A stretch of DNA of 64,000 bases, taken from contig SUZL01000010.1 in the NCBI GenBank assembly GCA_015059925.1, forward strand, positions 24,536 through 88,535, in the 5' to 3' direction. The notes under the pieces were generated by a model, which was not told where the DNA came from, searched no databases, and worked only from the letters and a program-made list of their open reading frames with translations. Within the stretch, counting starts at the first letter, position 1, and every line of letters starts with the position of its first letter. This DNA comes from Rikenellaceae bacterium. Lineage in GTDB: Bacteria > Bacteroidota > Bacteroidia > Bacteroidales > Rikenellaceae. This document shows, piece after piece, positions 13,290 to 63,885 of the stretch. The translations under genes were made by a program, and so were the position numbers.

Positions 13290-13411
13290 AAAATTGCATA
13301 ACAAGAGCTATTTTGAGACTGGTCGCCGACCGAAAGTCCGCAGCATACTTGGGCGTATGTGAGGAACTTGAGTAGGGGCCAGACGCCAAAAGAGCCTTGT
13401 TTGGCAATTTT
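13290..13411 (-). repeat. Dispersed 3'-UTR stem-loop element, copy A
   Basis: Ends AAAATTGCATAACAAG and CTTGTTTGGCAATTTT are near-perfect inverted repeats. Inside are a second helix (ATTTTG...CAAAAG, ACTGG...CCAG) and an apical hairpin CATAC-TTGGGC-GTATG flanked by CCGCAG and TGAGG. The right end touches the TAA stop of the minus-strand AraC gene. Similar elements occur near 35.8, 40.4, 45.1 and 63.8 kb. Confidence 0.8.
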
Positions 13412-14315
13412 ATCCCAATGCCTTGTAGCGCGAGGGCGATACCCCCGTTCGCTGCTTGAAATATTTTCCGAAGAATGACTGCGACACGAAATTGAGTCGC
13501 TCCGAGACCTCCAAAATGCTCAATCCGGGCTGGGCAAGCAGCTCCTTAGCCTTGCCGATTACGGCATCGTCGATAATCTTCGAGGCGTTGCGACCTGTCT
13601 GCTTTTTGCACACCAGCGAGAGGTACTTGGGCGTGATGCCCAACTTCGAGGCGTAGTACTCGACGCTTCGCTCCTGATGGCACGAGCGCACCAATTCCGA
13701 TGCAAACTGACGTATCAACTCGCCAGCACGAGAGAGAGTATCCGAGCCCGACATCGCCGACAAAGAGTAGTTGCCGATTATGGCAGCCAACATATAGTAA
13801 AGGGTATTGGCAAGCGACGAGAGAATCTTCTCGCCATAGATTCCATCGACACTACTCATACGCCCCACAAGAGCCGCTATGGCGTGCAGGCGCGTGGTAT
13901 CCTCCACACGAAGCTCAATGCAGGGCTTAGCTCCGACCATAATATCGGACATCAGTTTATCCGCCGCATCGTGATTTACCGAGCTAATGAATGCCTCCGA
14001 GAAATGGATAAGATAACCCATCGCAGCCTTGCTGGACTTGAATGCCCCAACTGCCGAGTCGCCGCGCAGGATGAGCAATGAGTTGGGACGCAATTCGTAA
14101 TTACGCCCGTTGATCGTACTCTTGGCCGTGCCACTCACCACAATCAAGACCACCATCCCATCAATGCCATTCTCAACGCTCTCCAACTCCTGCAATCGCA
14201 GCAGTGGCGTAAGCCTAAAATTCTGCGAGAGGAAACCCTCCTCCGAGAGTGTCTTTTTAATTTTAGTTACCGAAACGCAGCTCACTTCCTCACTACTCTT
14301 TCTCTTACTCTGCAT
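13410..14315 (-). CDS. AraC family transcriptional regulator
   Basis: About 301 residues. The N-terminal half is a cupin-like sensing domain (I-V-V-S-G-T-A-K-S-T-I-N-G-R-N-Y-E-L-R-P). The C-terminal 100 residues are a double helix-turn-helix AraC domain: Y-A-S-K-L-G-I-T-P-K-Y-L-S-L-V-C-K-K and I-L-E-V-S-E-R-L-N-F-V-S-Q-S-F-F-G-K-Y-F, ending G-V-S-P-S-R-Y. The ATG at 14315 is preferred; a GTG at 14339 that overlaps the stop of the lipid-kinase gene would add eight residues and allow translational coupling. It is last in the apbE, lipid kinase, araC order, and its stop abuts dispersed repeat copy A. The ligand and targets are unknown. Confidence 0.85.
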   Translation of the reverse strand: MQSKRKSSEEVSCVSVTKIKKTLSEEGFLSQNFRLTPLLRLQELESVENGIDGMVVLIVVSGTAKSTINGRNYELRPNSLLILRGDSAVGAFKSSKAAMGYLIHFSEAFISSVNHDAADKLMSDIMVGAKPCIELRVEDTTRLHAIAALVGRMSSVDGIYGEKILSSLANTLYYMLAAIIGNYSLSAMSGSDTLSRAGELIRQFASELVRSCHQERSVEYYASKLGITPKYLSLVCKKQTGRNASKIIDDAVIGKAKELLAQPGLSILEVSERLNFVSQSFFGKYFKQRTGVSPSRYKALG

Positions 14316-14335
14316 ACCTGAAAAAACTTCGATTA

Positions 14336-15232
14336 TCACTGATTCTCACTCGGACACACGATGTTGAGCGCTCCCCTGAGGCAACACACCCTCATCGGGA
14401 AACGACCTCCGCTCTGTCCATCCACGTCGGTATCCTCGCTAACGGGCGTAACGAGCGTCAGTTCACTCGCCTGCAAGTACTTCACCGCCGTAGTCCTAAC
14501 TCCTAACACATACAACATCATATCCATAGCCGACTGCACCACAGTATCGCGCTTGCGCAGGAACAGGCAGTCGAACACGCCATCGCGCAGGCTCGAACGT
14601 CGCGCCAGCGGCACACGTCCCGCCGTCTCGCCATTGAGCACCAAACCCATCAAAGTCGGGTAGTAGAAGGCCTCGCCATCGGCCGTTATGGTGAGCGGAA
14701 TACCACGCACCTTCTTCAGCTCCTTCAGAGCCTCGATCATATAGGCCGCGCGCCCCATCAGGTGCTTCATCTCCTCGGGCGTATGCTGCGATGTTGTGGT
14801 AAAGATTCCAAAACTGAATATATTGACAAAATAGATCTCCTGCTTGTCGGCCCTATCGATAGACTCCACGCGGCCGCAATCGATAGGCTCCACCACGCCA
14901 TAAGCGATCTGGCGGGCCGCCTTCTTTAGATTGTTTGACATTCCCAACGCACCCGCAAAATCGTTGGCCGTACCCGCAGGCAGAATGCCGAGCGGGATGG
15001 AGAGCGAACGACGCATAAGGGCATTGACCACATAGTTGAGCGTACCATCACCTCCCGCCACAACGATCAGATCGACAGACTCATACCCCTCGATAGGGTT
15101 TCCGTCAAAACGTAGCGGCACGGGCCTCATATCGTAGCCAGCATCACGAAAGATGGCCACAACCTGTTCTATGTTGCGCCCGATCTTTCCACGTCCTGCC
15201 TGACTGTTATATAGCAAAATTGCTTGCTTCAT
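14336..15232 (-). CDS. Diacylglycerol kinase family lipid kinase (DagK/YegS type)
   Basis: 298 residues with the diacylglycerol/sphingosine kinase catalytic domain: N-S-Q-A-G-R-G-K near the N terminus, the nucleotide loop V-V-A-G-G-D-G-T-L-N (about 58-67) and L-G-I-L-P-A-G-T-A-N-D-F-A. The C-terminal half is the beta-sandwich typical of YegS/DgkB, with N-I-F-S-F-G-I-F-T-T, D-V-D-G-Q and G-G-R-F-P. Such soluble enzymes phosphorylate diacylglycerol or related lipids with ATP at the inner membrane. The gene follows apbE after 23 bases and overlaps the alternative GTG start of araC, so the three genes form one operon. The precise lipid substrate cannot be read from sequence. Confidence 0.88.
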   Translation of the reverse strand: MKQAILLYNSQAGRGKIGRNIEQVVAIFRDAGYDMRPVPLRFDGNPIEGYESVDLIVVAGGDGTLNYVVNALMRRSLSIPLGILPAGTANDFAGALGMSNNLKKAARQIAYGVVEPIDCGRVESIDRADKQEIYFVNIFSFGIFTTTSQHTPEEMKHLMGRAAYMIEALKELKKVRGIPLTITADGEAFYYPTLMGLVLNGETAGRVPLARRSSLRDGVFDCLFLRKRDTVVQSAMDMMLYVLGVRTTAVKYLQASELTLVTPVSEDTDVDGQSGGRFPMRVCCLRGALNIVCPSENQ

Positions 15233-15255
15233 AAATTTCGTTTTCTCCCCTAAAT

Positions 15256-16305
15256 CTACTCGATCACACGCAACCCCTCGACCTTGCCCAAGGCCGTCTC
15301 GAGACCCTTCGAGTAGTACATCTCATACTCATCTCTCTGGCCAGCGGTTATGAAAAAGACCATAACACCCTGCCCCGACAAACCACGCGCCACCTCGATG
15401 GCACGCTCCACACCCAACGCCATAAACATCGTACCGTAGGCATCGGCCTCGGCACACGTCGGGGCTATGACCGTCGCCGAAAGCATATTCGTTACGGCGC
15501 TTCGTCCCGTGCGCGGGTCTATCGTATGGGCGACCTTACGCCCCTCGGCGTCAAGATAGTATCGGCGGTAGTTTCCCGATGTTGCCATCGAGCAGTTGCT
15601 CAGCGAGATGACCTGCTCGATGAAGGCTCCGGGCGTGTCGTTTCCATCGAAGGGAGTCTCCACTCCCACGCGCCACGCGCCACCCTTTGGGTTCACGCCT
15701 CGGCAACGCACCTCGCCGCCAATATCGACCAAATAATCCTCCACACCCAACTGCTCCAGAGCCTCGGCCGCCATATCGACCACATAGCCTTTGGCAATGG
15801 AGTTGAAATCGATCTGCACACGCTCATCGGCCTTGCGCAGTCGGCCCTCCGAGATGGTGAGTTTATCGATGCCGACAAACTCCAATATCGAATCGACATT
15901 GACCTTCGCCTCACGATCCTTGCCTGCAAAGCCGTAGGCCGTAACCAGCGGAGCGACAGTAACATCGTATGCTCCCTCGCTCTGCTCGCTCACGCGGCGC
16001 GAGAGTCCCAGACAGTGGATGATATGCTCGTCCAGCTGATCCGTCTCATTGCGATTAAGGCGGCTGAGCAGCGAGTTTTCATCGAAGATTGACATCGACG
16101 CCTTGGAGGCGGAGTCGATCTGCATCATCATCGCATAGATCTCGGCCGATGGGCGGTCGGTACGGGCCTGCACCTGCATAAACGTGCCGAGCATCTGGCC
16201 CTCGACGCGGACATACTGCAGAGGCTTGTCAGCACATCCGACCAGCAGCAATGCCGCCGCAACGACAGCTAAAATATCGAGCAAAAAAAATCTACGCAAA
16301 CTCAT
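15256..16305 (-). CDS. apbE: FAD:protein FMN transferase ApbE (lipoprotein)
   Basis: The ATG at 16305 is chosen because MSLRRFFLLDILAVVAA followed by L-L-L-V-G-C is a lipoprotein signal; the longer frame to 16332 would bury it. About 349 residues. ApbE covalently attaches FMN from FAD to Thr residues of Nqr/Rnf-type subunits outside the cytoplasmic membrane. Motifs seen: G-Q-M-L-G-T-F-M-Q-V near the start, the Y-D-V-T-V-A-P-L segment, D-F-N-S-I-A-K-G-Y-V-V-D, V-D-I-G-G-E-V-R and H-T-I-D-P-R-T-G, all typical of the family. The C-terminal A-D-A-Y-G-T-M-F-M-A-L-G is also conserved. It heads an operon with the lipid kinase and AraC genes; no Nqr/Rnf genes are in the window. Confidence 0.92.
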   Translation of the reverse strand: MSLRRFFLLDILAVVAAALLLVGCADKPLQYVRVEGQMLGTFMQVQARTDRPSAEIYAMMMQIDSASKASMSIFDENSLLSRLNRNETDQLDEHIIHCLGLSRRVSEQSEGAYDVTVAPLVTAYGFAGKDREAKVNVDSILEFVGIDKLTISEGRLRKADERVQIDFNSIAKGYVVDMAAEALEQLGVEDYLVDIGGEVRCRGVNPKGGAWRVGVETPFDGNDTPGAFIEQVISLSNCSMATSGNYRRYYLDAEGRKVAHTIDPRTGRSAVTNMLSATVIAPTCAEADAYGTMFMALGVERAIEVARGLSGQGVMVFFITAGQRDEYEMYYSKGLETALGKVEGLRVIE

Positions 16306-16370
16306 AAAAAGGTGCACCTTACGACTACCCAAAATGACTTTTCGGCAGACTAAAATGGCACATTACTTCG

Positions 16371-16378
16371 CAAATATA
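16371..16378 (-). promoter_or_regulatory. -7 box upstream of apbE
   Basis: Minus-strand TATATTTG, 66 bases before the apbE ATG. No clear -33 box was found at normal spacing. Confidence 0.45.
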
Positions 16379-16461
16379 CATAAATTTACAAAAAAAAGAA
16401 CACCTCGCGACCAAAGAGACATATAATACTGTGAAAAAATATGGTTTTTGGCCCAAAAATA

Positions 16462-16493
16462 TTTGGCTCTTAACTAAATTCGGAGTATTTTTG
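16462..16493 (+). promoter_or_regulatory. Promoter for rpsO
   Basis: TTTG (16462-16465), a 20-base spacer and TATTTTTG (16486-16493). Transcription would start near 16500, giving a leader of about 100 bases. Confidence 0.65.
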
Positions 16494-16600
16494 TGCCACG
16501 CTCCGGTGTTATCCATAGTAAGGAGGATGCATCGTGGAGTGCAACCAGGGTTTGGGAGGTTCCGGAAGGCGACGCTCAAGCCCATAAATCTTATTTTTTT
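16494..16600 (+). promoter_or_regulatory. Possible structured rpsO leader
   Basis: The roughly 100-base leader before the S15 gene is purine-rich and can fold: CCACG (16496-16500) pairs with CGTGG (16533-16537), and GGC (16567) with GCC downstream. S15 represses its own mRNA through leader structures in several phyla, so this is a reasonable candidate. The fold is inferred by eye only. Confidence 0.35.
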
Positions 16601-16873
16601 ATGGCTTATTTAACAGCAGAGAAAAAGCAAGAGCTTTTTGGTAAGTACGGCAAGTCTAACACCGACACTGGTTCTCCGGAGAGCCAGATCGCGTTGTTTT
16701 CGTACCGTATCAGCCACCTTACTGAGCACCTCAAGCAGAACAAGCACGACTTCGGTACCCAGCGCTCACTGTTGCGCTTGGTAGGTAAGCGTCGCAAGTT
16801 GCTTATGTACCTTAAGGAGGTTGATATCGAGCGCTACCGCGCAATCATCAAGACTCTTAACCTCCGTAAGTAA
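16601..16873 (+). CDS. rpsO: 30S ribosomal protein S15
   Basis: 90 residues starting at the ATG at 16601 ([10 protein letters not shown]); an in-frame GTG-type extension upstream lies in the leader and is not homologous. The S15 fold is recognisable by [32 protein letters not shown] and a C-terminal [13 protein letters not shown]15 binds 16S rRNA early in assembly of the small-subunit platform. It is followed by pnp, the classic rpsO-pnp arrangement, with a hairpin in between. Confidence 0.97.
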
Positions 16874-16888
16874 GAGACTGCGAGGTGA

Positions 16889-16926
16889 AAAAGGGCTGTT
16901 GGAGGCAAATAGAGCCGACAGCCCTT
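16889..16926 (+). terminator. Hairpin between rpsO and pnp
   Basis: AAGGGCTGT and ACAGCCCTT form a 9-bp stem with a long loop and a weak TTGTTT tail. It probably acts as a partial terminator or processing hairpin, as in other rpsO-pnp operons. Confidence 0.55.
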
Positions 16927-16962
16927 GTTTATGACAATTTTATTTGACGATTATAACAGATT

Positions 16963-19200
16963 ATGGAAGGAAAGAAGTTGTACAACGCTGTACAAAAGAC
17001 GATCACACTCGCTGACGGACGAGAGATTATGATCGAGACCGGCAAATTGGCCAAGCAGGCTGACGGCTCGGTTGTCGTTAAGATGGGCGACACAATGCTT
17101 CTCGGTACCGTAGTGGCTGCCAAGGATGCAAAGGAGGGAACAGATTTTATGCCTCTTCAGGTGGAGTATAAGGAGAAGTTCGCATCGTGCGGACGCTTCC
17201 CCGGAGGCTTTATGAAGCGCGAAGGCAAGGCAAGCGATGCCGAGGTGCTGGTGGCTCGATTGATCGACCGCGCACTTCGTCCGCTCTTCCCCTCGGACTA
17301 TCACGCTGACGTTTTCGTAACGGTTAATCTTATTTCGGCCGACAAGGATATCCAGCCCGATGCGCTGGCAGGTCTGGCCGCTTCGGCTGCTCTGGCCGTA
17401 TCGGACATCCCCTTCGGAGGTCCTATTTCGGAGGTTCGCGTAGCTCGCATTAACGGCGAGTACGTCATCAACCCCAATTTCTCACAGATGGCCGATGCCG
17501 ATTTGGACATTATGGTCGGCGGTACCATCGACAACATCCTGATGGTAGAGGGTGAGATGAACGAGGTGTCGGAGGAGGTTATGCTCGGCGCCATCAAGTT
17601 CGCTCACGAGGAGATCAAGAAGCACTGCGCCGTTCAGATCGAGCTCTCGAAGGAGCTGGGCAAGGACGTTAAGCGCACCTACTGCCACGAGACCAACGAT
17701 GAGGAGCTGCGTCAGCTGATCATCACCGAGCTCTACGACAAGGCTTACGCCATCGCTACCAGCGGTACGGCAAAGCACGAGCGCTCGGAGGCTTTCGAGG
17801 CTCTGGAGGCAGAGTTTGCAGCGCGTTACACCGAGGAGGAGCTCGAGGAGAAGGCTCCCCTGATCCACAAGTACTTCCACGACGATGTGCAGAAGAAGGC
17901 TATGCGCAATATGATCCTCGACGAGGGCAAGCGCCTCGACGGTCGTGCTACCGACGAGATCCGTCCCATCTGGTGCGAGGTAGGCTACCTGCCTGCAGCT
18001 CACGGTTCGGCTATCTTCACTCGTGGTGAGACTCAGTCGCTGACCACCGTTACGCTCGGTACGAAGCTCGACGAGAAGATGATCGACGAGGTATTGGTAC
18101 AGGGCTCTGAGAAGTTCACCCTGCACTACAACTTCCCTCCCTTCTCTACGGGTGAGGCTCGTCCCGCACGCGGCGTGAGCCGTCGTGAGATCGGTCACGG
18201 CCACTTGGCTTGGCGTGCGCTGAAGCCTATGATCCCCACTGGCGAGGCTATGCCCTATGCACTTCGCGTAGTATCGGATATTCTGGAGTCTAACGGCTCT
18301 TCATCAATGGCAACCGTATGTGCCGGTACGCTGGCGCTGATGGATGCTGGTGTTAAGATCAAGAAGCCCGTATCGGGTATCGCAATGGGCCTTATCTCTG
18401 ACTCTGCAACGGGCCGCTGGGCCGTTCTGTCGGACATCTTGGGTGATGAGGATCACTTGGGCGATATGGACTTCAAGGTTACGGGTACGGCCGACGGTAT
18501 CACCGCAACGCAGATGGATATCAAGGTTGACGGCCTCTCATACGAGGTTCTGGCAACCGCTCTGGAGCAGGCTCGCAAGGGTCGTATGCACATCTTGGGC
18601 AAGATCACCGAGACCATCGCCGAGCCTCGTGAGGACTACCGTCCATTCGTTCCCCGCATCGTGCAGATCCAGATCCCGAAGGACTTCATCGGTGCTGTTA
18701 TTGGCCCCGGTGGCAAGGTTATTCAGGAGATTCAGAAGACCACCAACACCACCATCACCATCACCGAGAATGATGAGTGCGGCGTAGTGGATATCTTCGG
18801 CGTAGATAAGGAGGCTCTGGATGGCGCACTCTCACGCATCAAGGCTATCGTTGCTGTTCCCGAGGTAGGTGAGGTTTACGATGGAACGATCAAGAGCATC
18901 GTGGCTTTCGGTGCTTTCGTTGAGATCCTGCCCGGCAAGGAGGCTCTGCTGCACATCTCGGAGATCGACTACAAGCGTTTCGAGACTATGGAGGAGACCG
19001 GTCTGAAGGAGGGCGACAAGATCGAGGTTAAGCTCATCGGTATGGATCCCAAGACCAACAAGTATAAGCTCTCTCACAAGGCTCTGATGCCCAAGCCCGA
19101 GGGTTGGGTTGAGCGTGAGCGCAAGCCCCGTCCGGAGGGAGGTCGTCCCCGTGGCGATCGCGGCGAGCGTCGCAGCTCAGACCGTCCCAAGCGTCAATAA
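16963..19200 (+). CDS. pnp: Polyribonucleotide nucleotidyltransferase (PNPase)
   Basis: 745 residues with the full PNPase order: first RNase PH domain (about 10-150, with [13 protein letters not shown]), an all-alpha linker, second RNase PH domain (about 325-560; [33 protein letters not shown]), KH domain ([11 protein letters not shown]) and S1 domain ([17 protein letters not shown]). The enzyme degrades RNA phosphorolytically from 3' ends. The last 35 residues form an Arg/Pro/Gly-rich basic tail ([10 protein letters not shown]) that may add RNA affinity. It lies downstream of rpsO. Confidence 0.97.
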
Positions 19201-19251
19201 TATATTTAAGGAATACTTAAACTAAATGTATAATACTAATTACAAACTTTT

Positions 19252-21000: not shown

Positions 21001-21021
21001 TCAATAGCTTAACAGATACCA

Positions 21022-21066: not shown

Positions 21067-21079
21067 ATCAGAAAAAACG

Positions 21080-23440: not shown

Positions 23441-23442
23441 AG

Positions 23443-27400: not shown

Positions 27401-27411
27401 TTATTCCATAG

Positions 27412-27432
27412 AAATTGTATAACAAGAGCTAT
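27412..27432 (-). repeat. Solo end of the dispersed stem-loop element, copy E
   Basis: GAAATTGTATAACAAGAGCTA equals the conserved left end of the dispersed element (compare copy A, AAATTGCATAACAAGAGCTA). The rest of the element is absent, and two bases later comes the stop codon of the minus-strand gene at 27433. It may be a deletion remnant. Confidence 0.55.
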
Positions 27433-27834
27433 TTATTCATTTCCTTTGGCTTCCAAGATGGGTAGGCCCGCCTCGGTAGGAATGTAAATAACCTTATTCG
27501 CCGAAGAGTTCTGCTGTCGCACCCATAGATACTGAATGTAGGTGGGCGTGAGCGAGCCATTCTCGATCTTGATAGCCTCGGCAGCACCCTGTGCGCGCAC
27601 TACCTCAGCCTGAGCGTTAAGTTTCTCTGCCTCGAGGTTGGCCTTCGCCTCCTCAATCTTGATCTGTCGATTCTGCTCGGCCTGCGCCAACTCTGCACGT
27701 CCCTTCATCTCCTGCTGCCACACCTTGTATCGGGGCACACCAAAGAGGAAGAACGCAACAATTGCACAACATACAAACGCAATAGACAAAACTGCGCCAG
27801 CCGTAATTACGGGGCCTTGGTTCGGATTACTCAT
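27433..27834 (-). CDS. Small membrane protein with stomatin/prohibitin-like coiled coil
   Basis: 133 residues. A Pro/Gly-rich N-terminal dozen, one strong membrane helix (residues about 11-31), then an amphipathic segment from 38 to 90 rich in Ala, Glu, Gln and Lys (A-E-L-A-Q-A-E-Q-N-R-Q-I-K-I-E-E-A-K). It ends with A-E-A-I-K-I-E-N-G-S-L-T-P-T-Y-I-Q-Y-L-W and V-I-Y-I-P-T-E-A-G-L-P-I-L. This is the pattern of the coiled-coil and C-terminal part of SPFH (stomatin/prohibitin/HflK) proteins, but the SPFH core domain is missing. The length and layout resemble mini 'membrane protease subunit' proteins. It is last in the cvpA-rsgA-trmH-aminotransferase run, 24 bases after the aminotransferase. Function unknown. 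Confidence 0.65.
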   Translation of the reverse strand: MSNPNQGPVITAGAVLSIAFVCCAIVAFFLFGVPRYKVWQQEMKGRAELAQAEQNRQIKIEEAKANLEAEKLNAQAEVVRAQGAAEAIKIENGSLTPTYIQYLWVRQQNSSANKVIYIPTEAGLPILEAKGNE

Positions 27835-34832: not shown

Positions 34833-35729
34833 ATGGCAGAATCTACGAAAAAATGGATGGAAATTTCGCGCTCCTACCGCACCTATATGCGGCTGGAGAA
34901 GCATCTGGCGAAGAACACGATCGAATCCTATATGCGCGATTTGGCTCAATTCGCCCACTTCATCCTGCGTATGTACGACGTTCCACCCAAGAAGGTTGAG
35001 ACGGAGATGATACGCAACTACCTTAAGCGACTATACGATTTAGGGCGCGAGAAGAGTTCGCAGGCGCGAGCGCTGAGCGGCATAAAGAGCTTTTTCAATT
35101 ACCTGATTCTCAACGACGTGATCGAGGCTTCGCCCGCCGAGCTGATCGAAGCCCCCAAGGCCTCACGTCCACTGCCCGACACCCTCACCATAGACGAGAT
35201 CGACCGCCTCATAGGCTCGATCGATGCCTCCACAACCAAAGGTCTGCGCGACCGTGCCATCTTGGAGGTGCTCTACTCGTGCGGCCTGCGCGTGAGCGAA
35301 CTGTGCGAGCTGCGCATCGGCGACCTCTTCTTCGGCGAGGGTTACATCCGCGTCACGGGCAAGGGCGACAAGCAGCGACTTGTACCCATCAGCGCAATGG
35401 CGCGCGAGCGCATACAGCTCTACTTGGACGAGCGCCGCAGCCGCTACCGCGACGAGATCCTCTTCCTGAACAATCGTGGCGAGCGCCTCACGCGCGTTAT
35501 GATCTTCACCATCATCAAGCAGGCCGCCCAGCGCGCCTCGATTGACAAGAAGATCAGCCCCCACACCTTCCGCCACTCCTTCGCCACGCATCTGCTGCAG
35601 GGCGGTGCAAGCATCCGTCAGGTGCAGGAGCTGCTGGGCCACGAGAATATCATCACCACCGAGATCTATACCCACCTCAACACCGACCATCTGCGCGAGA
35701 CGCTGCAGGAGCATTTGTCGTTAGAATAA
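34833..35729 (+). CDS. xerD: Site-specific tyrosine recombinase XerD/XerC
   Basis: 298 residues, the usual Xer length. The N-terminal SAM-like domain (Y-M-R-L-E-K-H-L-A-K-N-T-I-E-S-Y) is followed by the catalytic domain with all active residues: R153 in G-L-R-V-S-E-L, K177/K180 in T-G-K-G-D-K-Q-R, H244 and R247 in H-T-F-R-H, H270 in L-G-H-E-N and the nucleophile Y279 in E-I-Y-T-H-L. Xer recombinases resolve chromosome dimers at dif. The length, full motif set and housekeeping neighbourhood (prmA, adk) argue against a mobile-element integrase. XerC versus XerD cannot be decided without the paralogue. Confidence 0.9.
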   Translation: MAESTKKWMEISRSYRTYMRLEKHLAKNTIESYMRDLAQFAHFILRMYDVPPKKVETEMIRNYLKRLYDLGREKSSQARALSGIKSFFNYLILNDVIEASPAELIEAPKASRPLPDTLTIDEIDRLIGSIDASTTKGLRDRAILEVLYSCGLRVSELCELRIGDLFFGEGYIRVTGKGDKQRLVPISAMARERIQLYLDERRSRYRDEILFLNNRGERLTRVMIFTIIKQAAQRASIDKKISPHTFRHSFATHLLQGGASIRQVQELLGHENIITTEIYTHLNTDHLRETLQEHLSLE

Positions 35730-35768: not shown

Positions 35769-35796
35769 GTGCTTTATACAAAATCCTCCACCCCAT

Positions 35797-35918
35797 AAAA
35801 ATTGTATAACAAGAGGGATTTCAAGGCTTGCGATGCACGAGAAACCGCAGTTTGCTGGGCGCAAATGAGGATTTCGAGTGCGAGCGTAACGCAGAAATCG
35901 CCTTGTTAGGCAATTTTT
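35797..35918 (-). repeat. Dispersed 3'-UTR stem-loop element, copy B
   Basis: Ends AAAATTGTATAACAAG and CTTGTTAGGCAATTTT. Inner helices GATTTC/GAAATC and GCAC-GA-GAAA/TTTC-GA-GTGC lead to the apical hairpin TTTGC-TGGGC-GCAAA, flanked by CCGCAG and TGAGG. The right end adjoins the TAA stop of the Gfo/Idh gene. It is the most regular copy and a good reference for the family. Confidence 0.85.
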
Positions 35919-37311
35919 ACTCCTTGGCAACTTCGAGCGCTTTGGTGGTAGTATAATATTTTGAGATCATCTGCGAACGCTCCCACGCGGGAATCTCGCC
36001 CTGCTTCAGATAGTCGAGATAGACCTGCATAACGGAACTGAATCGCTGCTCGTGAGTCTTCACGATATCCGACGGAATCACCACCTGCCACTCGTGCTCG
36101 GCCGTCTTAGCAATATCCAACCCGGGATACTCATCGGCAATCGAGCGCAACGCTGCACGCAACGTAGCCTCCGCCTCGGCATCATCGCCCGTCTTGCTAA
36201 CGACGTAGAGCATAGGCTTGTAACCCTGCTCCTTGCCCTGACGAATCTCGATGTTGGCCTTCGAGCCCTTCACCACCGAGTAGTGCGTGTCGCCCGTACC
36301 CTCCGTACCAACGGCCGCCATAAAGTTCCAGATAACGCTCACGCGGCAGTTCACGCCGTTGAGACGATAGTTTAGTTCGCCATTTGAATATACCTGCAAC
36401 GTGTCGTTCACCACATCCTTCTTAAGAAAATCGGGATACTCATCCTGCCCCGTCACCAGACGATACTTATCGCGCGGGATGGGCGTAGCCCAACGACGCG
36501 CCGAGGTGAACTCGATCTGCTTCGTGTAGTCAATCTCCTGCTCGGGCATCACGGTACACTGCACCAGATCAACAAGATGCGTCGTAACGTCCACAATACC
36601 CTCGCCCTGCTGCTCCACGTCGAAGTACCACTCGGGGCGGCGCAACGGCTGGCCCGACACATACTTAAAGAAGTGGTGTACGCTCTCCTTCGTGATGGTG
36701 GGATCGTCGGCCGTGCCCTTCTCCATCTCGCCGAAGAGCTCGGGTATGGCAACCAGCACACGCTGAAGCTCGTTGTTGATCTCCGAACGCTCGGTCATAA
36801 TATCATACACCATCGAACCCTTCGCGGGGGCCTCCAGCAGCGTCTGCTCCAGCAGCGCAAAGTTCTTCTGATCGATGGCCATCGGCTTGTCCGACAGCAC
36901 GTTGAAACCTGCATCTACGGCCGCCTTCACATAACGTGTCTTCTTGCCGTTGTTACCCGCCAAGACCACTACGTTGCCCTTCCTCTCCTCGATCATCTTC
37001 TCCAGAAAATCATCGCCCGCGTAGAGCTGCTCCTGCCACGATGTGGGGCGCTCCGAGCGCTCGTTGTAGATCTTGATGCGATCCAAGTGCATCTGCACAT
37101 CATCGCCCTCGGGGGCATATACATTCACCACGGGATCGACCTCGTCGTACATATACATCTGCACCAGCGCCGCGTGGAAGTGGCCCGGATCGAGCGTTAG
37201 GAGTTTCACCTCGCCCGGAGTGCCGTTAAAACCCTCGCCGGCGGGTGCCGCACCGCCGCACGCGGTGAGTGCCAAAGCTGCAGCCATCATAGAAATAAGG
37301 TTCTTCTTCAT
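35917..37311 (-). CDS. Gfo/Idh/MocA family oxidoreductase, lipoprotein
   Basis: 464 residues. The N terminus MKKNLISMMAAALALTAC-G is a lipoprotein signal with lipobox A-L-T-A-C. The following part looks like a dehydrogenase Rossmann domain, though its first glycine-rich loop is atypical (L-L-T-L-D-P-G-H-F-H-A-A-L-V-Q-M); V-V-L-A-G-N-N-G-K-K and L-S-D-K-P-M-A-I-D are the clearest matches to Gfo/Idh/MocA enzymes. The C-terminal half contains H-H-F-F-K-Y-V-S-G and T-H-L-V-D-L-V-Q, matching the Bacteroidetes oxidoreductase C-terminal domain. Being lipid-anchored implies a periplasmic or surface site, unusual for an NAD(P) enzyme. The substrate is unknown. The stop codon adjoins dispersed repeat copy B. 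Confidence 0.82.
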   Translation of the reverse strand: MKKNLISMMAAALALTACGGAAPAGEGFNGTPGEVKLLTLDPGHFHAALVQMYMYDEVDPVVNVYAPEGDDVQMHLDRIKIYNERSERPTSWQEQLYAGDDFLEKMIEERKGNVVVLAGNNGKKTRYVKAAVDAGFNVLSDKPMAIDQKNFALLEQTLLEAPAKGSMVYDIMTERSEINNELQRVLVAIPELFGEMEKGTADDPTITKESVHHFFKYVSGQPLRRPEWYFDVEQQGEGIVDVTTHLVDLVQCTVMPEQEIDYTKQIEFTSARRWATPIPRDKYRLVTGQDEYPDFLKKDVVNDTLQVYSNGELNYRLNGVNCRVSVIWNFMAAVGTEGTGDTHYSVVKGSKANIEIRQGKEQGYKPMLYVVSKTGDDAEAEATLRAALRSIADEYPGLDIAKTAEHEWQVVIPSDIVKTHEQRFSSVMQVYLDYLKQGEIPAWERSQMISKYYTTTKALEVAKE

Positions 37312-40350: not shown

Positions 40351-40358
40351 AATTCCAA

Positions 40359-40547
40359 GGAATTGTATAACAAGTGAGATTTCAAGGCTTGCGATGCACT
40401 CAAAACCGCAGCATACTAAGGCGTATGTGAGGATTTGGAGTGCGAGCGTAAGGTTGCGTTTAAGCGAGGGCAGAGGGAGCTTGCTCACTTTGCCGAGCGT
40501 AGCAACCAAAAGGAACTTAACGCAGAAATATCCTTGTTAGACGATTC
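40359..40547 (-). repeat. Dispersed 3'-UTR stem-loop element, copy C, with insertion
   Basis: GGAATTGTATAACAAG at the left and CTTGTTAGACGATTCC at the right pair as terminal inverted repeats. Inner helix GCACTC-AAAA / TTTG-GAGTGC and apical hairpin CATAC-TAAGGC-GTATG keep base pairing with changed sequence relative to copy B. A 69-base insertion at 40451-40519 splits the descending arm. The right end is six bases from the adk stop codon. Confidence 0.8.
40451..40519. repeat. Nested hairpin insertion in repeat copy C
   Basis: Absent from the other copies at the same place. It is flanked by TA on both sides (40449-40450 and 40518-40519). GGTTGC (40452-40457) and GCAACC (40502-40507) close a hairpin with an inner GGCA...TGCC and AGC-TT-GCT. 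This looks like a second small mobile or repeat unit; no ORF fits. Confidence 0.6.
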
Positions 40548-40551
40548 CGTA

Positions 40552-41127
40552 CTATTTCTTTGAGTCGATAGCTGCACAAATTCGGTCGAACACCTCGTCC
40601 ATCGTACCCACACCATCAACAGCCACATACTTACCCTGCTTTGAGTAGTAGTCGGCAACGATAGCGGTCTGCTCACGATAAACCGAGATTCGGTTGCGGA
40701 TCACATCCTCCGATGCGTCATCGGCTCGACCTGAGTCCTTGCCGCGCAACAGGATACGCTTCACGAGTTCCTCCTCGGGAACGTCCATATAGACCATCAC
40801 ATTCACGCTAAGGCCATCCTCCGCCAAAATACGGTCAAACTCCTCGGCCTGTGCCGTTGTGCGGGGGAAACCGTCGAAGATGTTACCTACGGCATCCTTG
40901 TGCTCGGCCATATAGTTGCGAATCATACCGATCACGATTGAGTCGGGAGCCAAAGCGCCTGACTCGATGTAGCTCTGCATACTTTTTCCCAGCTCCGTAC
41001 CGCGAGTGATCTCACCACGAATAACATCACCCGTTGAGATGTGGTTGATGTTGTACTTCTCCTTAATTCGCGCCGCCTGCGTACCCTTGCCGCATCCGGG
41101 CGCACCAAATAATATAATGTTAAGCAT
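40552..41127 (-). CDS. adk: Adenylate kinase
   Basis: 191 residues, the short-LID type. P-loop L-F-G-A-P-G-C-G-K-G-T-Q-A (residues 6-18), AMP-binding S-T-G-D-V-I-R-G-E and D-G-F-P-R-T-T-A-Q-A-E-E-F, LID with R-L-x type arginines in L-L-R-G-K-D-S-G-R-A-D-D. It converts ATP and AMP to two ADP in the cytoplasm. Its 3' untranslated region contains repeat copy C and then a terminator. Confidence 0.96.
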   Translation of the reverse strand: MLNIILFGAPGCGKGTQAARIKEKYNINHISTGDVIRGEITRGTELGKSMQSYIESGALAPDSIVIGMIRNYMAEHKDAVGNIFDGFPRTTAQAEEFDRILAEDGLSVNVMVYMDVPEEELVKRILLRGKDSGRADDASEDVIRNRISVYREQTAIVADYYSKQGKYVAVDGVGTMDEVFDRICAAIDSKK

Positions 41128-45083: not shown

Positions 45084-45115
45084 AAAAAAGCTGATCCCCA
45101 ACGGAATCAGCTTTT
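45084..45115 (-). terminator. Terminator of rpsF-rpsR-rplI
   Basis: AAAAAAGCTGAT and AATCAGCTTTTA pair around CCCCAACGG; on the minus strand the stem ends in TTTTTT. It lies beyond repeat copy D, so copy D is inside the transcript's 3' untranslated region. Confidence 0.8.
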
Positions 45116-45121
45116 AATATA

Positions 45122-45244
45122 TTTTGCTTGTATTAAAGTGGCTTTTCAAGGCTTGCGAAGATTTCAAAAGCGGAGTTTACTTGGCGTAAATGAGCATTTT
45201 GAAATCGAGCGTAACGCCGAAAAGACCTTTAAGACAACAAAATT
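45122..45244 (-). repeat. Dispersed 3'-UTR stem-loop element, copy D
   Basis: The most divergent copy. TTTTGCTTGTATTAAAG and its partner CTTTAAGACAACAAAA are inverted repeats. Inner helix GATTTCAAAA / ATTTTGAAATC and apical hairpin TTTAC-TTGGC-GTAAA keep pairing with different bases from copies A to C. The motif AAGGCTTGCGAAG is conserved. The right end overlaps the TAA stop codon of rplI. Confidence 0.75.
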
Positions 45245-45683
45245 ACTCCTCAGCTACAACTGACAAAGCCACAGTAGCCTTCACCTCGCGGTGGAGCTTA
45301 ATCTCAGCGGTGTACTCACCTACGGTCTTGATAGACTCTACGGTGATAGCCTTGCGATCAACCACAACCTCCTTGGCAGCCAAAGCCTCAGCAACGTCAG
45401 CCGAAGTTACAGCACCGAAGATCTTACCCTCCTCAGCCTTAACGGTGATAACCAAAGGCAGGTTAGCGATCTTCTCAGCCAATGCCTGAGCGTCAGCCAG
45501 AATCTTAGCGTCCTTGTGAGCACGCTGGCGCAGGTTCTCAGCCAATACCTTCTTAGCCGAAGCGGTAGCAGCCTTAGCGAAACCCTGAGGAATCAAGTAA
45601 TTGTTTGCGTAACCGGGCTTTACGTTAACGATGTCGTTAGCATAACCCAAGTTCTCTACGTCTTTGATAAGAATAACTTCCAT
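45243..45683 (-). CDS. rplI: 50S ribosomal protein L9
   Basis: 146 residues. The L9 N-domain starts M-E-V-I-L-I-K-D-V-E-N-L-G and contains V-K-P-G-Y-A-N-N-Y-L-I-P-Q-G-F-A. The helix that links to the C-domain is lysine- and alanine-rich. Last gene of rpsF-rpsR-rplI; 19 bases separate it from rpsR. Its stop codon merges with repeat copy D. Confidence 0.96.
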   Translation of the reverse strand: MEVILIKDVENLGYANDIVNVKPGYANNYLIPQGFAKAATASAKKVLAENLRQRAHKDAKILADAQALAEKIANLPLVITVKAEEGKIFGAVTSADVAEALAAKEVVVDRKAITVESIKTVGEYTAEIKLHREVKATVALSVVAEE

Positions 45684-56976: not shown

Positions 56977-57035
56977 AAGCTTCAAATTTTTATTTTACAA
57001 CTCTATATTCTGTTATTTTTATTATTTCCATCCTA

Positions 57036-57066
57036 CAAATATATAACTTTTTTGTTAATAAACAAA
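57036..57066 (-). promoter_or_regulatory. Promoter for ppdK
   Basis: Minus-strand TTTG (57063-57066), 19-base spacer, TATATTTG (57036-57043). The -33 box lies inside the last codons of the preceding gene. The leader is about 55 bases. Confidence 0.75.
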
Positions 57067-57867: not shown

Positions 57868-57868
57868 A

Positions 57869-59044: not shown

Positions 59045-59065
59045 ATCTCAAATTCAGTTTGCTTA

Positions 59066-59073
59066 CAAATTTA
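59066..59073 (-). promoter_or_regulatory. -7 box of the mnmA promoter
   Basis: Minus-strand TAAATTTG, 22 bases before the mnmA ATG. No -33 box at normal spacing. Confidence 0.4.
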
Positions 59074-59085
59074 CAAAAAAATCCA

Positions 59086-59712: not shown

Positions 59713-59983
59713 GTCGGCCTCCTCCCTTTACTATATTATATACCGCGCGAGCAGCCACGACACTTCCCGCAACCGCAGCCAGCGCTATCAGCACCGCATC
59801 GCCACCCAATCGCGGCAGGTTGCGCATCACAGCCTCGTTGCCTCCGATCTCGCCACCCATAACGAACAGAAGCGCCACGATGGTTGCCATCGTCGTTAGG
59901 CCTACATAACGCAGCGCACTCCATCGACGAGCGAGATACCCCAACGCAATGCCGACAAACATCACAGCTATAATCTTAAACAT
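59702..59983 (-). CDS. LysO-type lysine exporter, N-terminal subunit
   Basis: 93 residues with three membrane helices: I-I-A-V-M-F-V-G-I-A-L-G-Y, T-T-M-A-T-I-V-A-L-L-F-V-M-G and A-V-L-I-A-L-A-A-V-A-G-S-V-V-A. It has the N-terminal LysO/DUF340 motif G-G-E-I-G-G-N. The stop overlaps the GTG start of the C-terminal gene, so they are translationally coupled. In E. coli the two parts form one protein. Confidence 0.8.
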   Translation of the reverse strand: MFKIIAVMFVGIALGYLARRWSALRYVGLTTMATIVALLFVMGGEIGGNEAVMRNLPRLGGDAVLIALAAVAGSVVAARAVYNIVKGGGRRAE

Positions 59984-60165
59984 CCTCGGTCAATTTTTCC
60001 GCAAAGTTAGTCGCTTTTGCCTTTTCTGCCAAACCCACCTCCTCTCACCCCCAGAAAATCGCCATCGACGCCCCGAAAAAGTTTCTCTTACAGAGAAAAA
60101 GCAAAAAAATCACAAAAAAATGAAAAAAATAACTACTTTGTGATACAAAATACCAAAATTATCCA

Positions 60166-60173
60166 TATATTTG
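60166..60173 (+). promoter_or_regulatory. -7 box of the PspC-PadR cluster promoter
   Basis: TATATTTG, 38 bases before the first ATG. A TTTG (60137-60140) is found but at a 25-base spacing. Confidence 0.5.
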
Positions 60174-60211
60174 CATCAGGAAAATATCTCAACTCAATTA
60201 AATACTCGACT

Positions 60212-60709
60212 ATGAAAGAGACAATCAACGTCAACATTGCCGGTCAAGCCTTCACGATGGATATGGATGCTTACACGGCGCTAACGGCCTACCTCGACGA
60301 CATTGCGCGTCGTCTGCCCCAGAGCGACACCGAGACTATGGCCGACATCGAGGCTCGCATTGCCGAGCTCTTCCGCGAGAAGGTACCCTCCCCGATGATG
60401 GTCATAACGTATGGCGTTCTGCGCAACACGATGAACCAGATCGGCCGTCCCGAGGACTTCGGCGCTGCCAACCGTCCCCTGAACTCCTCGACGGAGAAGA
60501 AGAGCGGCGAGCGTCGCCTCTACCGCTCACGCACCGACCGCTCGATTGCGGGCGTATGTTCGGGCCTTGCCAAGTATTTCGGTCTGGAGACTTCGCTCGT
60601 GCGCATCGCCGCCATCCTCTGCATCTTCGCAGCCGGAGCTACGCTGTGGATCTACCTCATTCTGTGGCTTGTTCTTCCCTACGAGCCCGAAACGCAACAA
60701 AATAAGTAA
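60212..60709 (+). CDS. PspC domain protein with Bacteroidetes N-domain
   Basis: 165 residues from the ATG at 60212 (M-K-E-T-I-N-V-N-I-A-G); the frame extends 65 codons upstream across the promoter and is not used. Residues 1-100 are a small domain also found in the second PspC protein of the cluster (A-Y-L-D-D-I-A, then D-I-E-A-R-I-A-E-L-F). The C-terminal part is a PspC domain: R-L-Y-R-S-R-T-D-R-S-I-A-G-V-C-S-G-L-A-K-Y-F-G and a membrane helix. PspC is a membrane stress sensor in enteric bacteria. It is followed 21 bases later by padR. Confidence 0.82.
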   Translation: MKETINVNIAGQAFTMDMDAYTALTAYLDDIARRLPQSDTETMADIEARIAELFREKVPSPMMVITYGVLRNTMNQIGRPEDFGAANRPLNSSTEKKSGERRLYRSRTDRSIAGVCSGLAKYFGLETSLVRIAAILCIFAAGATLWIYLILWLVLPYEPETQQNK

Positions 60710-60730
60710 CCACTCAAACGAATCAAAGCT

Positions 60731-61126
60731 ATGAACGACGATAACGTAAAAGTACAAATGCGCAAAGGCATCCTCGAGTATTGCATCTTGGCCATACTCT
60801 CACGCGAGGACTCCTACGCTCCGAAGATCATCGCCGAGCTCAAGCAGGCCGAGATGATCGTTGTCGAGGGTACGCTCTACCCCATCCTCACCCGCCAGAA
60901 GAACGCAGGCCTTCTGACCTACCGCTGGGAGGAGTCGCCGCAGGGCCCACCCCGCAAGTATTATATGCTCACCGAGGCTGGCCGCAAGCAGTTGGCCCTT
61001 TTGGACGATGCGTGGAACGAAATGGTCGAGCAGATACGCCTGATCCGCCACGGCCACACCGTGATCGAATCCACCGAGGAGCCCTCCACGCGCCCCATCC
61101 CCGAGCTTAACCCCACGCAGGAGTAG
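60731..61126 (+). CDS. PadR family transcriptional regulator
   Basis: 131 residues with the PadR winged helix: Q-M-R-K-G-I-L-E-Y-C-I-L-A-I-L-S, E-G-T-L-Y-P-I-L-T-R-Q-K-N-A-G-L-L, P-R-K-Y-Y-M-L-T-E-A-G. The second domain is short and the protein ends with a Pro/Glu-rich tail. PadR proteins usually repress neighbours in response to stress ligands, so self-control of this PspC/GIN cluster is likely. Confidence 0.88.
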   Translation: MNDDNVKVQMRKGILEYCILAILSREDSYAPKIIAELKQAEMIVVEGTLYPILTRQKNAGLLTYRWEESPQGPPRKYYMLTEAGRKQLALLDDAWNEMVEQIRLIRHGHTVIESTEEPSTRPIPELNPTQE

Positions 61127-61179
61127 CACTCACTCAACTAACTGAAATAAACAACTATTACACGCAAAACACTATTACA

Positions 61180-62274
61180 ATGAAACGTATTCTATTTTTT
61201 ATCACTGCCATAGCCCTCGTTTGCGGCTACGTGCCTCAGACACAGGCACAGACAATCTACTCTTCCGACGGATCAGTCGTAACCATCACCAGCGATCAAC
61301 TTGCCGAACTTGGCGAGCGCCTCGGTCGCCTTGGTGAGGAGCTGGGCGAGAGTTTAGGCAGAGATTTGGGTTCGCTGGGCGAGGAGCTCGGTTCGTTGGG
61401 CGTAGATCTTGCCGAGGCCATAGAGAATGGCGACATCGATGGCAACGTCTATATCAACGGCAAGCGCATCAGCGACAAGGACAACAAGTCGCAGCAGCGT
61501 TTTCGCGGTAGCGGCCGCATCATCACCGAGAAGCGCACCGTCCCCGCAGACTATCGTGGCATCATCACCAGCCGCTCGATCAAGGTTACGCTTGAGGATC
61601 GTTTAGACCCGACGGCCATCATCCGCGCCGACGACAACGTGATGCCTTACATCAAGATCGAGGATCGTGGCGGCGTTTTGCAGATCAAGATCGACGACGA
61701 GATCCGCACCATCAACAACGTAACGGCCGAGGTGAGCCTCCCCAAGAGCGAGGCAATCAGCCTTCTGGAGGCGGCAAGCGCATCGCACATCAACGTCAAT
61801 TACACCATCCGTAGCTCTTCGCTCGAGATCGACGCTGCATCGGCTGCTGAAATCAACATCTCGAAGGCCGACGTCGGCAGCTGCGATGTAGAGGTCTCTT
61901 CGGCTGCCAAAGTCAGGGGCACGCTCATCGCCTCGCAGTGCGAGGTCGAGTCCTCATCGGCTGCCAATGCCCGACTCCAGATTCTGGCCGGCAAGTGCGA
62001 GGCCGACGCCTCGTCAGCCGCAAAAATTATCCTCAGCGGCGAGGCAGGCACACTCTCGGCCGATGCCTCATCAGCTGCCGACATCGATGCCGTCAATCTC
62101 AAGATTCTCAACAATGGCATAGCCAACTCTTCGTCGGGTGCCAACATCAAGATTCAGGCCGGCAAGTCGCTCTCTGCCAATGCCTCATCGGGCGGCTCGA
62201 TAAGCTACAAGAGCGAAAATGACCTCAACATTCACATCAAAAAGTCAAGCGGCGGTAGCGTTCGCAAGATGTAA
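61180..62274 (+). CDS. Secreted GIN-domain protein (DUF2807)
   Basis: 364 residues with signal peptide (M-K-R-I-L-F-F-I-T-A-I-A-L-V-C-G). An N-terminal helical, Leu/Gly/Glu-repeating stretch (L-G-E-E-L-G-S-L-G) is followed by the head-GIN/DUF2807 domain: V-P-A-D-Y-R-G-I-I-T-S-R-S-I-K-V-T-L. The C-terminal 150 residues are a beta-helix with a repeating Cys and Ser-Ser-Ala-Ala pattern about every 20 residues (G-S-C-D-V-E-V-S-S-A-A, S-Q-C-E-V-E-S-S-S-A-A, G-K-C-E-A-D-A-S-S-A-A). Such proteins are common in Bacteroidetes beside PspC/PadR genes; function unknown. Confidence 0.82.
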   Translation: MKRILFFITAIALVCGYVPQTQAQTIYSSDGSVVTITSDQLAELGERLGRLGEELGESLGRDLGSLGEELGSLGVDLAEAIENGDIDGNVYINGKRISDKDNKSQQRFRGSGRIITEKRTVPADYRGIITSRSIKVTLEDRLDPTAIIRADDNVMPYIKIEDRGGVLQIKIDDEIRTINNVTAEVSLPKSEAISLLEAASASHINVNYTIRSSSLEIDAASAAEINISKADVGSCDVEVSSAAKVRGTLIASQCEVESSSAANARLQILAGKCEADASSAAKIILSGEAGTLSADASSAADIDAVNLKILNNGIANSSSGANIKIQAGKSLSANASSGGSISYKSENDLNIHIKKSSGGSVRKM

Positions 62275-62293
62275 ACACCAACACCCTACGACA

Positions 62294-63679
62294 ATGAACG
62301 AAATCAAGAAATGTAGTATCGCGGGCGTATCGTTCACCTTGGAGCGTGATGCCTACGAGACTCTCAGCCAATACCTACAGTCGCTCCGCGACACCTACTG
62401 CGACAACCCCGACGGCGAGGAGATTCTGGCCGACATCGAGGCCCGCATCGCCGAGCTTATTCTCTCGACCCAGCCCCTCGATGCCATCATCGCCAAGCCA
62501 CTGATCAACAACATCATAAAGCAGATGGGCTCGGCCGCCGAGATCGACGAGGAGGGCACCGAGCGCCACGTCGAGACGGAGGATCAGTACGGCAATCCCC
62601 GCATCCCGCGTCGCCTGTACCGCGATCTGGAGAACGGCAAGCTGGGCGGCGTATGCGCCGGTATCGCCAGCTACTTCGACATCGACCCCGCGTGGGTACG
62701 TCTGGCGGCATTCCTGCCCCTGCTGCTCACCCCTATCATCGGCTCGATGAACTTCCTAAACGCACTTCTGCCCTTGACGAGCAACCTCTTCGGATTTGTG
62801 GTTCTGGGCTACCTGATTATGTGGTTTGCCATCCCTGCAGCCTCGTCGGCACGTCAGCGACTGGAGATGCGCGGCGAGCGTATAACCGCCGACAGCATCC
62901 GCGCCAATACGTCAGCGCCCGACCAGCGCGAGCGCACGATCATTGCCAAGCTGGTGGCCGCCTTCGGTAGTTTCCTGCTGATTTGCGTCAAGATAGTAAC
63001 GCTACTTATACTTATCGTTCTGGTCTGCGGCTCGAGCGTGCTGGGCCTTGTCGCCATCACGGGCGTGCCTGCGCTGCTGACGACCGACTTTGTAACGGGC
63101 GTTGCGTTGGCCTCATTCTTTGTGGTGGTAACGATTCCCATCATTGTGCTGATCTACCTCTCGGTGATGTTGCTAATCTCGCGCCGTCCCCACGGCCGCA
63201 CGATGCTCATTATGTTCATCATCTGGCTCATTGCTCTGATTGCGATGATCGTCTCGGCCATCAAGTCGCCCGTTAAGTTCGACCGCCAGATCGAGAACAC
63301 CTTTGAGTCGGTCTTCCAGCACGACGAAGATATTCTCTTCGAGGAGTTCACCGAGGAGGAGCTTAAGGAGTTCCACGAGCAGTTCGAGGACTACGACACC
63401 ACCTCTCTACAACAGGACAACCTCACCCTGACACTCGAGGGCCCGAGCGACAACATCTCACAGATGAAGGCGACGGTGCAGTTCAGCGACGACGGTCTGC
63501 GCATCACCGACAACGAGGGTGAACTGATCGAGATCACGACCGACGGCATAAAGATCGGCGGCGAGGATTTCATCAACTACACCACCGAGCGCTCACCCCA
63601 GAGCGACGCCATCATCTTCTCCGTTGGCGGCGTTACGATCCGATTAGAGGAGGCCATCAAGAGTGCCGAGGAAGAATAA
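62294..63679 (+). CDS. PspC domain membrane protein, large
   Basis: 461 residues from the ATG at 62294 (M-N-E-I-K-K-C-S-I-A-G); the extended frame overlaps the GIN gene. The N-terminal domain matches the small PspC protein (A-Y-E-T-L-S-Q-Y-L, D-I-E-A-R-I-A-E-L-I). PspC domain: R-L-Y-R-D-L-E-N-G-K-L-G-G-V-C-A-G-I-A-S-Y-F. Then about five to six membrane helices and a C-terminal soluble part of about 130 residues beginning with a very acidic stretch (E-E-F-T-E-E-E-L-K-E). Last gene of the cluster; it starts 19 bases after the GIN gene. Confidence 0.82.
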   Translation: MNEIKKCSIAGVSFTLERDAYETLSQYLQSLRDTYCDNPDGEEILADIEARIAELILSTQPLDAIIAKPLINNIIKQMGSAAEIDEEGTERHVETEDQYGNPRIPRRLYRDLENGKLGGVCAGIASYFDIDPAWVRLAAFLPLLLTPIIGSMNFLNALLPLTSNLFGFVVLGYLIMWFAIPAASSARQRLEMRGERITADSIRANTSAPDQRERTIIAKLVAAFGSFLLICVKIVTLLILIVLVCGSSVLGLVAITGVPALLTTDFVTGVALASFFVVVTIPIIVLIYLSVMLLISRRPHGRTMLIMFIIWLIALIAMIVSAIKSPVKFDRQIENTFESVFQHDEDILFEEFTEEELKEFHEQFEDYDTTSLQQDNLTLTLEGPSDNISQMKATVQFSDDGLRITDNEGELIEITTDGIKIGGEDFINYTTERSPQSDAIIFSVGGVTIRLEEAIKSAEEE

Positions 63680-63703
63680 CACATCTTAAAGGTTTATAAT
63701 GAG

Positions 63704-63738
63704 AAAGGGTGCTATCCATCGTGGATAACACCCTTTTT
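63704..63738 (+). terminator. Terminator of the PspC/PadR/GIN cluster
   Basis: AAAGGGTG-C-TATCCA and TGGATA-A-CACCCTTT with T-runs afterwards. Confidence 0.87.
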
Positions 63739-63810
63739 ATTTTTTTCGGGCCAAGCCAGACGCCAATTTATCTCAGGCAAGAGCTCCCAAAGAGCCCCCC
63801 CACACTTCTT

Positions 63811-63885
63811 AAAATTGCTATAACAAGAGGGATTTTAAGGCTTGCGAAGCACGAGAAACCGCAGTTTACTTTTAGTAAATAAATC
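63811..63885 (-). repeat. Dispersed stem-loop element, copy F, truncated
   Basis: AAAATTGCTATAACAAG followed by AGGGATTTTAAGGCTTGCGA and the CCGCAG-TTTAC / GTAAA apical hairpin; the left arm matches copy B closely. The descending arm and right end are missing; after 63885 the sequence is AT-rich and unrelated. Written as minus for consistency with the other copies. Confidence 0.7.

Follow-up and report, generated by a model that had tools for sequence, protein, structure and literature searches.

The hairpin elements and their neighbours

The window considered here is a stretch of 64,000 nucleotides (nt) from a Rikenellaceae bacterium (bases 24536-88535 of contig C11, in an assembly of 2.09 Mb and 25 contigs), for which a comparison of adk places Alistipes and Rikenellaceae genomes as the nearest named relatives, a large share of them of ruminant gut origin. 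It contains copies of a predicted hairpin element of about 120 bases. A preliminary description, made from the letters of the window alone, had reported six related elements in a single orientation, and all six were recovered, all on the plus strand: four long copies (A to D), one truncated copy (F) and one remnant (E). As had also been described, the long copies abut the stop codons of minus-strand genes, at -6 (A), -5 (B), +2 (C) and -3 nt (D) when measured from the modelled element end, which for copy C was widened, and terminator-like hairpins adjoin elements. Genes of this genome were called with a simple coding-score script. The features concerned are listed below.

13237..13274, no strand assigned: terminator-like hairpin left of copy A (sequence, limits by eye)
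13287..13415, plus strand: copy A, full-length hairpin element (covariance-model match, 89.4 bits)
13410..14315, minus strand: AraC-type regulator, stop abuts copy A (gene call, Pfam)
27411..27436, plus strand: copy E, remnant, left arm alone (sequence, six-genome alignment)
35795..35921, plus strand: copy B, full-length element (covariance model, 144.1 bits; alignment)
35917..37311, minus strand: Gfo/Idh-type oxidoreductase (Oxidoreduct_C), stop abuts copy B (gene call, Pfam)
40357..40549 (approximate), plus strand: copy C, element with nested insertion of about 60 bases (core match, 62.7 bits; BLAST pieces)
40552..41127, minus strand: adk, stop abuts copy C (gene call, Pfam)
45084..45120, no strand assigned: terminator-like hairpin left of copy D (sequence, limits by eye)
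45121..45245, plus strand: copy D, beside rplI (covariance model, 112.1 bits; alignment, identities)
45243..45683, minus strand: rplI, stop abuts copy D (gene call, Pfam)
63811..63870, plus strand: copy F, left half only (BLAST match to copy B positions 2-60)

The covariance model matches only the core of copy C (40383-40456), whose nested insertion lies roughly at 40452-40512. This insertion of about 60 bases is itself hairpin-like (GGTTGCGTTTAAGCGAGGGCAGAGGGAGCTTGC...), a second repeat nested in the first, and similar nested insertions are present in copies C23:40198-40390, C2:89673-89843 and C4:64565-64711 of the same genome. The left neighbour of copy B (34833-35729) encodes a phage-integrase-family tyrosine recombinase (PF00589) that resembles an ordinary Xer protein.

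Distribution among Bacteroidales

Genomes were searched with a covariance model built from 57 copies, drawn from the genome of the window and 16 relatives. In the former, 64 matches were obtained at E-values up to 1, of which one reverse-strand echo and one match with E = 0.046 were dropped; the 62 catalogued, four of them widened by hand across a nested insertion, correspond to about 60 copies. Among 24 same-genus relatives, 17 carry matches (2-83 each), with G001, G005, G015 and G021 among the rich genomes, and seven have none (G002, G007, G009, G012, G013, G019 and G023). In other Bacteroidales families, 1 to 7 matches were found in each of six out of 16 genomes, and the 15 matches from six such families keep the core and the fold with different arms. 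The genome searches that the preliminary description had proposed thus uncovered many further copies; its observation is right, and larger than described. Dozens of copies of the predicted hairpin can be scattered through the genomes of Alistipes-related gut bacteria.

Variant arrangements also occur. Direct tandem pairs of elements are found at L117 2573-2823 and L118 2519-2768 (both in genome G004), at L113 97-348 (G001) and at L177 7073-7345. Short versions of 63-74 bases (in the genome of the window, at C19:6871-6944, C19:53933-54005, C9:80157-80229 and C5:10286-10348) have lost much of the inner core and keep the paired arms and the position at the stop codon.

Searches against Rfam returned only tRNA above the gathering score in the window, no match above it at the remote loci L335-L342, and, for L001 and L165 at E-values up to 5, tRNAs and sub-threshold matches of which none lay over the element. 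No description of the repeat was found in the literature searched, in which subscription journals were little covered.

A conserved structure with varying arms

Changes on both sides of the helices had been taken in the preliminary description as compensatory evolution of a structure. This was assessed by counting pairs on alignments, with shuffles and the sliding of pairing partners as controls. In the alignment of the 57 copies (A1), 92.3% of cells pair, and in 33 of 48 pairs both partners vary; cells with a double change number 355, against 100.7 +/- 10.4 after shuffling and 50-67 with the partners slid, so that the compensation is real. The 15 matches from other families show double changes in 40 of 45 pairs, with 171 such cells against 54.9 +/- 6.2, in an alignment that was fitted to the model and is hence biased towards it. 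Kinship between copies inflates counts of this kind. Despite this inflation, covariation by chance is very unlikely on the sequence alignments because the double-change counts are both large and broad.

Inspected by eye, the matches from other families for the most part retain the motifs of the core (AAGGC, GGAG, TACT and TGAG, for example), and their arms are of different types, with GTGTTTGRTTCAGA in G031, G036 and G040 and AGGAACGAATCAAAAATAA in G034. The consensus foot of the element is AAGTTG/CAACTT. Copy B, folded as RNA, gives z-scores of -6.9 on the plus strand and -5.6 on the minus strand.

Placement, orientation and the probable folding strand

Across the 62 copies of the genome, the nearest right-hand gene is antisense to the element in 57, and for 49 copies the stop of this antisense gene falls within a range of -20 to +8 nt from the element end, with 42 of these 49 at -6 to +2 nt. 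The left-hand gene is convergent in 40 copies, and in 56 the 60 nt to the left of the element fold below -8 kcal/mol. Among the remote matches, seven of 15 adjoin the stop codon of a reading frame that runs antisense to the element (L335, L336, L338, L341, L342, L344 and L345). Among the 54 copies that share a contig with another copy, 49 take the majority orientation, a level unreached in 20000 random-sign trials. Random placement or orientation, the outcome that the preliminary description had set against its own proposal, is thus not what this genome displays. Of the 668 genes in the stretches read, the strand of the abutting genes holds 378, and gene strand bias alone is insufficient to produce the shared orientation because the binomial probability against this proportion is 4e-8, a rough value as the majority orientation was picked from the data. 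Taken in element orientation, the T-A skew has a negative sign in all 12 contigs, and the abutting genes would appear to run with replication.

Two further suppositions about placement were rejected. Younger copies were suspected to be less flush with the stop, and a cut at 150 bits gave 27/37 vs 22/25 (p = 0.21). An outer stem copied from host coding sequence had been suspected at L054, L046, L056 and L057, where the arms lie behind the located stops. When only the eight most alike copies of the genome are set against the remainder, 3/8 vs 46/54 are flush (p = 0.008), which is a hint only as the cut was chosen post hoc. For recent units in other genomes, a rough frame search in which several coding scores were weak or negative gives distances of 0-72 nt from the preceding stop.

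Relative to the abutting gene, the plus strand is antisense. In 51 of the 53 full copies of the genome it has the lower free energy (means -47.6 vs -40.1 kcal/mol), and with DNA parameters it folds better in all 53. Read in element orientation, A1 contains 85 G.T against 34 A.C combinations, with two mostly-G.T pairs left out, and alignment A2 (62/70 rows), which has copies in common with A1, contains 131 against 44, with 36 of the G.T from one mostly-G.T pair. This excess stems mainly from the outer helix. Since the better-folding strand is antisense to the gene, an mRNA tail is less likely to be the selected form, and single-stranded DNA or an antisense RNA is, on these folding models, the more likely. 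The preliminary description had raised, as one possibility, a functional 3' untranslated region RNA, carried on the transcript of the abutting minus-strand gene. The position behind stops stands, and some function is suggested at rplI (see below), but the proposal is weakened by the energies and by most wobble pairs, which favour the antisense plus strand.

Evidence for movement

Several lines of evidence point to recent movement. In G001, four contig ends start a unit that is 100% identical for 135-141 bases, after which the sequence passes into four unrelated right flanks, and a further feature of this assembly is that four contig ends hold the left part of the identical unit, from which it follows that at least four copies of the unit are present. 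Copies of a second subfamily are followed on the right by four different flanks. The recently moved unit, of about 162 bases, consists of a terminator-like hairpin together with the long hairpin (156-163 nt in six cases, the ends being placed by eye), and its ends share GnnGCTGTCTAACAAG in inverted orientation, that is, terminal inverted repeats are present. Six copies in the genome of the window also share about 50 nt on the left side. A shrunken unit behind a stop at L099 (about 11615-11740), next to an apparent RNase P RNA recognized by eye, retains the right end and the terminator hairpin but has lost the long hairpin. G016 shows a burst of similar units (contigs C379, C243, C398, C12, C59, C91, C169 and C274), where the left flanks are A-rich and the right flanks mostly T-rich, as if the units replaced a bidirectional terminator.

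Comparison of equivalent sites provides a second type of evidence. One site is filled in L170 and empty in L176, and another is filled in G005 and empty in the genome of the window. At the site of copy E, which retains the left arm in the window, full copies are found in G062 and G064 in a six-genome alignment, and the site of copy B holds another subfamily in G062 and, in G064, a remnant that ends at a short ATTTT repeat. The rplI site of L176 is occupied by a different element from that of its relatives, and L185 and L186 have none there. At adk, the covariance model places an element flush with the stop in four of 80 named loci (L171, L176, L177 and L221), with two elements in tandem in L177; in L240 an element lies about 100 nt further, on the other strand. 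Inspection of 31 of these 80 loci left none visible in 27, and some contigs end near adk. Because sites may thus be filled, empty, reduced to a remnant or held by another subfamily, copies appear to have been gained, lost and swapped, and mobility of the element is well supported by these sequence comparisons. A search of 61 genomes for empty sites of the recent G001 copies, made with their joined flanks, returned only tRNA and scattered matches.

Conservation of the rplI copy

An element of the copy D type is also found at rplI in L169, L171, L173, L177 and L188. Between the window, L169, L171, L173 and L177 (10 pairs), the element is 95.2-99.2% identical, against 87.5-91.4% for the rplI gene, and identity at third codon positions is 0.74-0.78 in the four in-frame pairs among these ten. 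Overall, this third-codon measure was usable in six of 15 pairs (0.70-0.78), nine out-of-frame pairs (0.20-0.26) being dropped. The adjoining intergenic sequence hardly aligns. In comparisons with L188, the element loses this lead over the gene (87-90% for the element, 86-90% for rplI); set by eye against the window copy, the L188 element shows four double changes that preserve pairing, including apical TTTAC/GTAAA to CATAC/GTATG, and one pair-breaking change. Measured at this one site, these comparisons suggest selection on the fold.

Models for the origin and spread of the family

The model favoured here, to which an even chance is given, is that this dispersed repeat, lying mostly behind stops, spreads as a non-autonomous mobile element by way of the single-stranded antisense strand, through a mobiliser that was not found. 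The moving form would be single-stranded DNA of the strand antisense to the abutting gene, read at its conserved core by a trans-acting protein, and it may enter at replication forks, in which case the shared orientation would be accounted for. As the unit carries a terminator-like hairpin, an insertion would bring its own terminator and do little harm. Some copies, for example at rplI, may later have been retained for a function of their own.

A number of results weigh against this model. Mobilisation of the RAYT/IS200 type, one of the possibilities raised in the preliminary description, found no support within the genus, where the Y1 transposase domain Y1_Tnp (PF01797) was detected in 0 of 16 genomes; it is present in eight of nine genomes from other families. 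The reverse transcriptase domain RVT_1 was not found in G001 (83 matches), G005 (75 matches), G004, G008, G010, G011 or G013, and was found in four of five copy-free genomes searched; the genome of the window has one reverse transcriptase match, below the cut-off. Both negatives are weakened by incomplete assemblies, those searched for Y1_Tnp being 72-98% complete. An insertion sequence with the end motif GGGGCTGTCNNACAAG was sought in seven genomes, and of the 12 sites in three of them, only some of which were read, none was seen to bracket a gene. No target duplication was seen by eye in six intact copies, with ends also chosen by eye. The G-C skew is -0.032 overall, but negative in only seven of 12 contigs. 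The wobble signal is weak in alignments A4 (32 G.T vs 18 A.C) and A3 (20/27 rows; 21 vs 17), is opposite in bias at several pairs of helix 2, and is inflated by shared ancestry. Lastly, the conservation at rplI exceeds that expected of a decaying mobile copy.

Carriage outside chromosomes was also considered. Pattern scans of viral contigs gave 0, 0, 1, 0 and 0 stretches with an element, and blastn of one unit against phages and plasmids gave no match. In the sole viral-contig stretch, L450 (6841-9246), a PHO4-type transporter gene is followed after 32 nt by an element of 137.5 bits. Upstream are genes for a Clp protease and, scoring under the Pfam cut-off, a portal-like protein; the stretch with the element is likely to be the host flank of a provirus.

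An alternative scenario, regarded as rather unlikely, is that the family is a functional gene-end element under selection, in which a stop-flush hairpin shapes transcript ends or blocks antisense transcription and is occasionally copied. The stops at the right end of 49 of the 62 copies and of seven of the 15 remote matches, the conservation of the rplI element over its gene in five genomes, and the refilling of sites by other subfamilies all fit such a role. However, it sits poorly with the seven same-genus relatives that lack the element, the presence of a flush element at adk in only four of 80 loci and the comparison with L188. In addition, 22 of the 62 copies lack a convergent left gene able to transcribe the antisense strand, which is also the strand that folds better.

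A broader form of the single-stranded DNA model is more speculative and must be considered unlikely as it stands. This proposes that the order Bacteroidales as a whole harbours a class of mobile hairpins of single-stranded DNA that need neither Y1 transposases nor reverse transcriptases, in which another enzyme would read the core while the arms are freely exchanged, insertion would follow the fork behind leading-strand stops, and some copies would be recruited as permanent gene-end structures.

Movement as a double-stranded miniature inverted-repeat transposable element (MITE) is improbable. Here, the transposase would be of the DDE type and belong to an insertion sequence whose inverted ends match those of the unit, and later selection would set placement and orientation. 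The G001 unit does have inverted-repeat-like ends, GGGGCTGTCTAACAAG and, reversed, GAAGCTGTCTAACAAG, and its size of about 162 bases and intergenic position match those of known bacterial MITEs (PMC2229807), but the end-motif sites and the unseen target duplication described above offer this scenario no help, and the strand asymmetry of the fold is left unexplained. Finally, a mostly mutational origin, in which arms corrected against each other by template switching during replication mimic compensation, is highly improbable: replication errors do hit hairpins and the remnants at sites E and B end at short ATTTT repeats, but such correction should erase non-standard core positions like the G.T pair conserved in 56 of 57 copies, and it accounts for neither the dispersal nor the placement at stop codons.

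Relationship to known repeats

The attC sites of integrons likewise combine a folded single strand, paired arms and a position behind a stop codon. The right arm of the present consensus, GTTAGAC, fits the attC motif GTTRRRY, but the left arm, GTATAAC, misfits RYYYAAC, and the present copies are scattered behind core genes with no cassette array.

Among dispersed repeats, ERIC/IRU and NEMIS/Correia elements are described as non-autonomous, intergenic, imperfect palindromes of about 100-200 bp with highly paired transcripts, and ERIC is reported to have an orientation-dependent effect on mRNA stability; known small mobile repeats are listed with TA ends and mostly with target duplications (PMC2229807). 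On these general properties, the present family resembles ERIC and NEMIS in size, imperfect palindromy, intergenic position and non-autonomy, and differs in the lack of a visible target duplication, in a core common across families with changed arms, and in its contig-wide orientation. Repetitive extragenic palindromic (REP) elements are high-copy palindromes of 20-40 bp with a GTAG or CGTC tag, often between convergent genes, and CGTC REPs, too, are reported to lack a dedicated transposase (PMC3733652). The present element is likewise a high-copy palindrome, often between convergent genes, but it is about 120 bases long, its consensus foot has no GTAG/CGTC tag, and the 16 same-genus genomes gave no Y1_Tnp match. 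The structured-RNA candidates HMP2_4205, HMP2_1065 and HMP2_1032 of Bacteroidetes, palindromes of 80-132 bp reported near TPR, RuvA and TonB genes, were predicted to be terminators (PMC8040213); they are set apart from the present element by description only and may equal part of the family.

The family is thus best read as new and REP/ERIC/MITE-like. In its workings it resembles ERIC, NEMIS and REP among the small mobile hairpin repeats, yet no RAYT-type Y1 transposase was found in the 16 same-genus genomes, no target duplication has been seen so far, and the stop-codon placement, the contig-wide polarity and a core with changing arms set it apart.

Significance

The usual explanation for dispersed hairpins in bacteria is a RAYT transposase or a parent insertion sequence. 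The present family looks recently active in a genome that yielded no Y1 transposase and no reverse transcriptase on searching. On the practical side, several G001 contigs break inside the element. If the proposed model is true, the family would offer a testable case of a mobile element becoming a gene-end structure.

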